Below are positions 59,945 through 63,636 of a stretch of DNA of 64,000 bases, piece after piece. The stretch's first letter is position 1, and every line of letters starts with the position of its first letter. This DNA comes from a bacterium. GTDB taxonomy: Bacteria > Zhuqueibacterota > Zhuqueibacteria > Zhuqueibacterales > Geothermadaptataceae. The position numbers and the translations under genes are program-made. Under the pieces are notes generated by a model, which had not been told where the DNA came from, did not search any database, and worked only from the letters and a program-made list of their open reading frames with translations. The stretch is from positions 1 through 64,000 of the forward strand of contig JAJRYV010000077.1 of NCBI GenBank assembly GCA_024275575.1, read 5' to 3'.

Positions 59945-61639
59945 TTAAATTCTTTTTACTCTTTTTAAAATTGAAGTGAACTCGGTCATATTATGTAAAA
60001 GTTGAATCGCTTTTTTCAATTCACGGTCGGTCGCGAAACGGCTGCGAATTTTTGCCGCCGAGCCACCAAACTTTGCTGCGAGTTCTATTTGCAAGCGCTG
60101 CCGGATAAATAGTGAATTTCTCTCGAACTCATCGACCGGGTGAGCGTTAATCTCATCTTCCAGCTTGCTCAGATACGGTTCTATTTTTTCGATCGTTCCT
60201 TGGGCTGCAAGCAGAGATTTTAACTCTTGCAATTTCTTAAAACTCTGCTCCTCGAAGTGAAAGTTTTTCTCCTGCAAATACAGTTTAAAATCAGCTATAA
60301 TTGCTTCTGTCACCTGCGGAATTGTCGTGTCGCGCTCATACCTGCCGGCGAAATCGACAGCAAAGTTAAACAACATCGACTGGCGCAGCAATTGCCTTTG
60401 ATAATCGTTGAGAGAGTCGTTGGCAACCGCAATATCAGGAAAAATTCCACCCCGGCCAAAAACCTCACGACCAGTTGCCGTTCTAAAAGTTTTCGCAGAA
60501 TCCGCGAATAAAATTTTCCGTACTCCATCAGTCAATAATATTTTTTCTTTCACTGTGCGGCGGTCATGCTGAATTAGCCGTCCGCTCGGCAGGTAGTATT
60601 TAGCTGTGGTCATTTTCAAAAACACATTGTCGCCAACCGGAATAAGGCTTTGTACCAGGCCTTTGCCGAAAGTCGGCTGCCCGAGAATGATGCCCCGGTC
60701 AAGGTCCTGAATTGCACCGGCGACAATTTCCGAAGCCGAAGCGCTGGAGCTATTGACCAATAAAACGAGTGGGGTATTTTGCAAAAGAGGCTGTGATTCA
60801 CTGAAATAACTTTGCAGCGATTCCGGATTACGCCCTCTCGTGGAAACGATGAACTGCCCTTTGGGTAAAAAAATATCCGCTACACCGACGGCGGATTCCA
60901 GCAAACCACCGGGATTGTTGCGCAGGTCGAGAATCAGGCTGCGTATGCCTTTGTTTTTTAATCCGATGATCGCGCTCTGCATTTCCGGGACAGCATTTTT
61001 TGAAAAACGGGTCAGCTTGATGTAACCGATACTATCGGGCAACATATCGGCAAATTCGATATCTTTAACGAGGATTTCCGCACGCACCAGGCGGAATTTT
61101 ACCGGTTTTTCAGAACCTGCGCGGCGAATGCTGATGTTCACTGCAGTGCCGATCTCGCCACGCATATATTTAGCCACCTCTCCGACGGTCAAACCTTCGG
61201 TTGAAACGCTGTCAACTTCAATAATCTGATCACCCTCACGGCATCCGGCGCGAGCCGCCGGCGTATTGTCGTATGGCGGCTCCATGACCGTCGGCCAGTT
61301 ATCACGGATGCCGATCACCAGACCCAGACCACGGTAGCGGCCAGTTGTCATGATTTGCAATTGCGCATTTTCTTCTCCTTTGACCATGATTGAATAATCA
61401 TCCATGGCCGAAAGCATCGCCTGAAGACCGATGCGCATCAATTTTTCCGGGTCGATGAGCTCGACGTAGCGGTTCGTCACCTCTTTATAAACTTTGCCGA
61501 AATAGATCAAATTATGTTGAACGCGGGCGAGATAATCGATTTTTCCGGCATGTTTTTCTTTGGAAAGCCAGCCGGACAGCGCAAGACAAAGTATGATGCC
61601 AATCGTGATTGGTAAAAACATCCGGTTTTTTCTGATCAT
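59945..61639 (-). CDS. C-terminal processing peptidase (S41 family)
   Basis: 564 residues with an N-terminal membrane anchor or signal (MFLPITIGIILCLALSGWL). A PDZ domain lies near 95-190 (GLGLVIGIRDNWPTVMEPPYDNTPAARAGCREGDQIIEVD). The Ser/Lys catalytic pair is in NSSSASASEIVAGA near 300 and TFGKGLVQ near 325. It is a periplasmic protease cutting near protein C-termini. A C-terminal helical part of about 170 residues is longer than in E. coli Prc. Its ATG overlaps the TAA of the thymidylate kinase gene (TAATG), so it depends on translation of that reading frame. Confidence 0.92.
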   Translation of the reverse strand: MIRKNRMFLPITIGIILCLALSGWLSKEKHAGKIDYLARVQHNLIYFGKVYKEVTNRYVELIDPEKLMRIGLQAMLSAMDDYSIMVKGEENAQLQIMTTGRYRGLGLVIGIRDNWPTVMEPPYDNTPAARAGCREGDQIIEVDSVSTEGLTVGEVAKYMRGEIGTAVNISIRRAGSEKPVKFRLVRAEILVKDIEFADMLPDSIGYIKLTRFSKNAVPEMQSAIIGLKNKGIRSLILDLRNNPGGLLESAVGVADIFLPKGQFIVSTRGRNPESLQSYFSESQPLLQNTPLVLLVNSSSASASEIVAGAIQDLDRGIILGQPTFGKGLVQSLIPVGDNVFLKMTTAKYYLPSGRLIQHDRRTVKEKILLTDGVRKILFADSAKTFRTATGREVFGRGGIFPDIAVANDSLNDYQRQLLRQSMLFNFAVDFAGRYERDTTIPQVTEAIIADFKLYLQEKNFHFEEQSFKKLQELKSLLAAQGTIEKIEPYLSKLEDEINAHPVDEFERNSLFIRQRLQIELAAKFGGSAAKIRSRFATDRELKKAIQLLHNMTEFTSILKRVKRI

Positions 61640-62288
61640 TAAAAGGCCTCCATTTTAAACTCGGCTTTTTTCGCCTTTTCGCAAACGGCCTGCCATACAG
61701 TTTGCTGTTGCGCCTCGATGCCTTGTTCTGCATCGATCGTCACGAAGCGGTGTGCATATTTTTTCGCCAACTGCAGGTATCCACTGCGTACACGTGCATG
61801 AAATTCACGATTTTCCGCTTCAAGCCGGTCATCGCTTTTTCCACCGGTGCGCCGACGTTTTTCCGCAGTTTCCAGGCTGACATCAAAAAACAAAGTTAAA
61901 TCAGCTTGCAGGTCATTTGTTGCCAGCCTGATAGCTGCATCGATAAGATTCAAATCCAACCGGCGGCCATATCCCTGATAGGCGGCAGTGGAATCGGTGT
62001 AACGATCACAAATAACCACCTTGCCTACAATCAATGCCGGCCGGATCACCTGTTCGACAATTTGCGCCCGTGCCGCAGCATAGAGCAACAACTCCGTGCG
62101 TGCGTGCATTTCGCTGTTGCTGTTATCGAGTAAAATTGCACGTATCAATTCTGAAATCGTCGTGCCACCGGGCTCGCGTACATATAAATGCTCGATACCC
62201 AACGCTGAAATTTTTTTGAAACAGCCTGTGCCTGCGTAGTTTTTCCACAGCCGTCAAGCCCTTCGAAAGTCAATAATAAACCGCTCAT
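61639..62288 (-). CDS. tmk: Thymidylate kinase interrupted by a -1 frameshift at an A7 run
   Basis: Makes dTDP from dTMP. ATG 62288 opens MSGLLLTFEGLDGCGKTT with the P-loop, but this frame stops at 62145 after 47 codons. The rest of the enzyme (YVREPGGT, CDRYTDSTAAYQGYGR, RRRTGGKSDDR lid) is in the -1 frame and ends at 61639. The two frames join exactly at TCA AAA AAA (A7, 62211-62217) to give a normal 216-residue protein without loss. The A AAA AAA heptamer is in the canonical phase for -1 slippage. It starts 10 bp after the MATE gene and its stop overlaps the protease start. The alternatives are a sequencing undercall of A8 or a recent mutation. Confidence 0.85.
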
Positions 62289-62298
62289 CTCATCAAAA

Positions 62299-63636
62299 TT
62301 ATAAATCGATAAATTTCCATTTACCACCGCGAAAACGCCAATAGTTAAGCACCAGCCGTGTTGTCTCATCGATCATGTGCACCGTCCACAACCCCCAGAG
62401 GGAGAGATTAAATATAAACACTGAAGCCCAGGTGCTGCCGATTTCAAAAAAGATGACCCCGGCCATCGTCGTCCACATGAGCCATTTCAAATCACCGGCA
62501 CCGCGTAAATTCCCGATCACCACGCCATTGACCGCTTTGGGAATTTGCGCCAGTGCGAAAGCGAGTACAACCGTGGAACCAATTTTGACAACTTGTGGAT
62601 CATCGGTAAAAATGATTATTAAATTTTTGGAAAAGAAAACAGTCACCGCAAAAACGATCATGACGAAAATATATACAACCCAACCGGTCATCTCTGCTGT
62701 TTTTTGAGCCAGTTTTTTTTCTTCCGCGCCAAGATTTTTCCCCATCAGCGTCATGGCAGCCAGGCCGAAGCCAAAATAAAACATCGAGAGAATGGCCTGG
62801 ATGCGCAGAAAAACCTGATGTGCTGCTAGGGTTGTTACACCAAGAATTGCGGCGTACATCGAAACAACGAGCAGGCCGAGTGACCAGACGAGCTGCTCAA
62901 CAGTCGTTGGCAAACCGGCTTTAAACAGTTTTTTAAACGTCTGCCAGTTCGGTGTCGTTGTTTCACGCAACGAAAGAAATAAAGTCATTTTCCGGCTGCG
63001 CAATAAATATGCAGTGATACAAAATCCCACCGAGTGGGAAATACCCACAGCGAGACCAGCACCGAACACTTCCAACCGCGGGGCACCGAAAAGGCCGAAA
63101 ATTAAAACAGGAGCGAGTACGGCATTCAGAGAATTGATGGTAAGATTGATAATCATCGAATGAATGGTATCGCCGGCGCCGCGAATCACTCCGACAGCGA
63201 CAAAATTGGTAATTATTATGGGTGCAAAAAAAGCGACTGTTTGCAGGTAAGTGACACCGGAGTTGCGCGCTTCGCCGCTGGCTTCACGAATCAGGCTTAA
63301 AAGCCAGGGGGCGCCAAAATACCAGGTCAGGCCGAGAATAAAACTCAACACCACACCCATCATCACAGTTTGGCCGAGAACGTGGTTGGCTTCCCAAGTG
63401 TTTCCGGCGCCGAGATGCCGGGTTAAAATCAACGATGCGCCGACGATAAATGTCAACAGCACTGTCATGCAAACCACGAGAATCTGAATGGCCATGCCAA
63501 CGCCGGCAAATGCGGCCGCACTGATTTGCCCGATTAAAATAGTTTCGATCGTCCACATGATCGTTTGTGAGGATAGATCGATGACCGCGGGCAAAGATGT
63601 CTTCAGAATTGATTTTAATGGAGACTTACGTTTCAA
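62299..63636 (-). CDS. MATE-family multidrug efflux transporter
   Basis: 445 residues with twelve hydrophobic segments. Two homologous halves each begin with the MATE pattern: PAVIDLSSQTIMWTIETILIGQI near the start and KKLFKAGLPTTVEQLVWSLGLLVVSMYAAILG near 240. It exchanges sodium or protons for organic cations across the inner membrane. First gene of a likely MATE-tmk-S41-ppdK run on the minus strand. A strong terminator separates it from the gene upstream. Confidence 0.92.
   Translation of the reverse strand: MKRKSPLKSILKTSLPAVIDLSSQTIMWTIETILIGQISAAAFAGVGMAIQILVVCMTVLLTFIVGASLILTRHLGAGNTWEANHVLGQTVMMGVVLSFILGLTWYFGAPWLLSLIREASGEARNSGVTYLQTVAFFAPIIITNFVAVGVIRGAGDTIHSMIINLTINSLNAVLAPVLIFGLFGAPRLEVFGAGLAVGISHSVGFCITAYLLRSRKMTLFLSLRETTTPNWQTFKKLFKAGLPTTVEQLVWSLGLLVVSMYAAILGVTTLAAHQVFLRIQAILSMFYFGFGLAAMTLMGKNLGAEEKKLAQKTAEMTGWVVYIFVMIVFAVTVFFSKNLIIIFTDDPQVVKIGSTVVLAFALAQIPKAVNGVVIGNLRGAGDLKWLMWTTMAGVIFFEIGSTWASVFIFNLSLWGLWTVHMIDETTRLVLNYWRFRGGKWKFIDL

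Follow-up and report, generated by a model that had tools for sequence, protein, structure and literature searches.

The window, i.e., the whole stretch of 64,000 nucleotides that was analysed, carries a thymidylate kinase gene (tmk) on its minus strand which has no single reading frame from the P-loop to the C-terminus: the P-loop part lies in the 0 frame and the remainder in the -1 frame (Table 1). The 0 frame opens with ATG at 62288, reads MSGLLLTFEGLDGCGKTTQAQAVSKK from there and ends after 47 codons with TGA at 62147-62145, with its residues being tmk-like through SKK and the remainder up to the TGA being out of frame. The -1-frame portion begins ISALGIEHLYVREPGGT... and terminates with TAA at 61641-61639. 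This C-terminal part reached 139 bits against TIGR00041 (dTMP kinase; cut-off 83, E 1.4e-40) and 129 bits against PF02223 (cut-off 27), and thus exceeds the curated cut-off for thymidylate kinases on its own. The junction is formed by an A7 run (62217-62211) with the local reading ...TCA AAA AAA TTT CAG.... Rechecking of the sequence and its open reading frames confirmed the split, its phase and its coordinates as given in the original prediction. The seamless enzyme of 216 residues which had been expected from a -1 slip was likewise recovered, consisting of 26 + 190 residues, with both halves matching TIGR00041. In addition, the start of the downstream S41 protease is indeed coupled to the -1 frame, its ATG overlapping the -1-frame stop as TAATG. 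The gene order MATE-tmk-S41 is the same in the relative G001, and MATE-tmk in the relative G002, both of the same genus.

Table 1. Features of the tmk locus (positions in the window) and frame-broken genes elsewhere in the same assembly, the names of the latter being impressions from the sequence, as the frame lesions alone were tested.
Feature	Position	Strand	Basis or lesion
MATE transporter gene, upstream of tmk	62299..63636	minus	TIGR00797, 238 bits (cut-off 147)
N-terminal (P-loop) frame of tmk	62145..62288	minus	TIGR00041, E 1.2e-6; ORF listing
A7T3 tract, one base short vs. same-genus relatives	62208..62217	minus	sequence and comparison with G002 and G001
Rest of tmk, -1 frame (KKISALGIEHLYVREPGGT... 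to TAA)	61639..62217	minus	TIGR00041 and PF02223
S41 C-terminal processing protease gene	59945..61639	minus	TIGR00225, 273 bits (cut-off 219)
Glycosyltransferase-like gene	L158:9640		one base short at A6
Membrane protein	L152:9840		one base short at T7
Heme-protein-like gene	L158:3457		one base short at A6
Sigma-54-regulator-like gene	L176:16352		one base short at A5
C-terminal-sorted protein	L149:11355		one base short at C4
Large gene	L131:1540		frame broken by a deletion longer than one base vs. G001 (L208)

The kinase encoded by tmk is usually essential. In keeping with the original prediction, which allowed for no intact second tmk in the genome, a PF02223 profile search of the whole assembly (estimated completeness 97.7%) revealed no second tmk and only two weak further matches. 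One of these, a weak Thymidylate_kin match (C20), was rejected as a second tmk, being a PF01712 deoxynucleoside kinase (138 bits). As weak matches with a length and score like those of C20 accompany a proper tmk in many relatives, this kinase does not look like a replacement for tmk. The other match (C96) reaches 27 bits inside a 454-aa frame. These results bear on the view that a recent, real loss-of-function mutation, with no rescue, is present in the sampled strain or in a fraction of its population. Such a mutation would agree with the loss of a single base from an otherwise intact tmk, and homopolymers mutate readily. Nevertheless, this explanation is very unlikely for a gene of this importance which has no other copy in so complete a genome and stands between conserved neighbours.

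An uninterrupted PF02223 frame (E <= 1e-35) occurs in 55 of 59 relatives, while the other four feature weaker PF02223 matches, three of these genomes being 79-85% complete. The set compared contains one genome per species, and a search for a second genome of the same species found none, the relatives returned being at most about 51-52% identical. In G002 (67% identical), the site is read in one frame as TTG AAA AAA TTT TCT GCG TTG (L K K F S A L), and in G001 as CGA TTT TCT with no A run. The genome studied here reads TCA AAA AAA TTT, followed by TCA GCG TTG in the -1 frame, and is thereby G002-like on both sides of the junction. Since the F of the 0 frame and the S-A-L of the -1 frame both agree with G002, the missing base is, as judged from this alignment, somewhere within A7T3 and not necessarily in the A run. 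The T run is shorter by one base than in the sisters, with the two AAA codons unchanged. An undercall of A8 had previously been named as the simplest alternative to slippage. The undercall itself is favoured by the evidence presented here, whereas a reduction from A8 to A7 in particular is not the most economical version, as it would need an additional change from F to I. With both same-genus relatives reading F-S through TTTTC, the T run is at least as likely a place of loss as the A run. In L027 (from G029), the unbroken tmk contains an A8 in phase, located a few codons downstream of the site. Furthermore, 12 residues of the -1 frame are unique to this genome and 15 to G002, with G001 as the outgroup, and this balance gives no sign of decay in the -1 frame.

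The original prediction interpreted the junction as a slippery -1 site of the dnaX type. A heptamer of the form X_XXY_YYZ is present in the phase of the 0 frame, TCA AAA AAA TTT containing A_AAA_AAA. However, 530 ordinary long ORFs of this genome (771 kb) contain 309 A7 runs, 80 of which (about 26%) are in the same phase, so that the match at tmk carries little weight and is weak evidence. Alignment of the site in relatives, as had been suggested, showed that the heptamer is not conserved in the genus: it is replaced by G_AAA_AAA within one frame in G002, and G001 has no A run. No stimulatory structure was found downstream, the fold z-scores of about -0.1 to -1.2, depending on length, being ordinary for the composition; the downstream folds in G002 and G001 are different and weaker. 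A hairpin six nucleotides past the A7 run, dnaX-like at first sight, was rejected because of its ordinary energy for the composition and its absence from the sisters. By eye, no upstream Shine-Dalgarno-like stimulator was seen in GGCACAGGCTGTTTC ahead of the run. The proposal that tmk is subject to a conserved, programmed -1 frameshift, delivering a short P-loop product besides the full-length enzyme, can thus refer to the heptamer in the right phase and an overlapping -1 frame, as in dnaX-type ribosomal frameshifting, and to nothing more. In contrast to dnaX, no Shine-Dalgarno-like or structural stimulator stands out, and the site is not conserved even within the genus; 55 of the 59 relatives read tmk in one frame. 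Moreover, the short product would have no evident use. Programmed frameshifting of tmk is accordingly extremely improbable.

Slippage could also act as a rescue, if the lineage had undergone a real deletion of one base and either ribosomal -1 slippage on A_AAA_AAA or polymerase slippage on A7 supplied enough full-length kinase. The exact phase of the heptamer and the intact, unaccelerated -1 frame are in line with this explanation, and an important gene whose frame is broken at an A run resembles known cases of transcriptional-slippage rescue at A/T runs. A precedent exists in rpoB of Escherichia coli, a frameshifted essential gene rescued by slippage of about 5% at a heptanucleotide (PMC7022156). 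Still, the best unstimulated heptamers in E. coli reach only about 0.3% frameshifting (PMC4066793), and it is usually at nine A/T that selection against transcriptional slippage becomes evident (PMC1088944), a run longer than the seven present in tmk. Together with the frequency of in-phase heptamers in ordinary genes and the absence of any stimulator that stands out, this renders a rescue by slippage quite unlikely, all the more as the other one-base lesions of the same genome copy, described below, call for a common cause.

These lesions emerged from an ortholog comparison run in both directions between G001 proteins (1.6 Mb) and 1.06 Mb of this genome, the coverage being 21% for this genome and 27% for G001. 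It was used instead of an ab initio coding-frame scan, which mostly returned gene overlaps and did not call tmk with its short N-terminal segment. As the weightiest result, 6 of 256 orthologs in the 1.06 Mb are, besides tmk, frame-split relative to G001. An undercall in tmk predicts that other conserved genes of the same assembly are one base short at runs, and five of the six splits lack exactly one base, four of them at A/T runs of 5-7 (Table 1). The gene affected at T7 occurs once in this genome, and in 11 of 12 relatives the match is free of stops. The reverse comparison revealed no genuine split among 238 G001 genes (Fisher p 0.03); when inspected, the five candidates had other explanations, one being the L131 lesion again and the others a duplicated tail, an antisense frame, overlapping genes and non-coding sequence upstream. 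If tmk is included, five of six one-base losses are located at runs of at least five, which make up about 5% of the coding bases, although the resulting enrichment (binomial p about 2e-6) is overstated, since tmk was picked for its run. With five further conserved genes one base short in the same genome copy as well, the slippery -1 site read at tmk finds no support. Two side observations concern other genes of this genome. In a flavin reductase gene (L175:977), whose counterpart in G001 is an uninterrupted frame of 332 aa, a -1 shift splits the frame where there is no homopolymer, so that some lesions in this genome have other causes. In the ab initio scan, an NTPase-like gene (L180:15701-16118) changed frame several times over some 400 bases and may represent a decayed gene or poor sequence.

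Thus, the cell very probably carries an ordinary, single-frame tmk, from which one base of the A/T tract would have been dropped in this genome copy during sequencing or consensus calling; we place the loss, by inference, in the sequence data rather than in the cell. One-base losses that are scattered over conserved genes and go in the same direction, most of them at A/T runs of short length, with a clean sister genome, form a pattern of sporadic homopolymer undercalls, to which tmk would most simply belong. Homopolymer indels are a recognised class of assembly error (PMC9262707). Likewise, unclustered frameshifts validated by homology were expected to be sequencing errors by the authors of the GeneTack survey (PMC3711429). 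In a departure from this error class, runs of 7-9 in the ORFs are not depleted overall compared to G001, so that undercalling would have to be sporadic. Moreover, at least two lesions (L149 at C4 and L175:977 with no run) are located away from long runs, which weakens the undercall as an explanation.

If, on the other hand, A7T3 were real and the sole tmk were made by -1 slippage at A7, which is quite improbable, the cell would owe an essential nucleotide kinase entirely to recoding, and this would be very unusual. As other conserved genes are broken likewise and the gene of the sister is intact, the split of tmk most likely reflects an error of sequencing or assembly rather than a novel mode of reading genes. 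As approximately one in 50 conserved genes of the surveyed part is short by one base, claims of broken genes or recoding derived from this genome copy need the support of reads.
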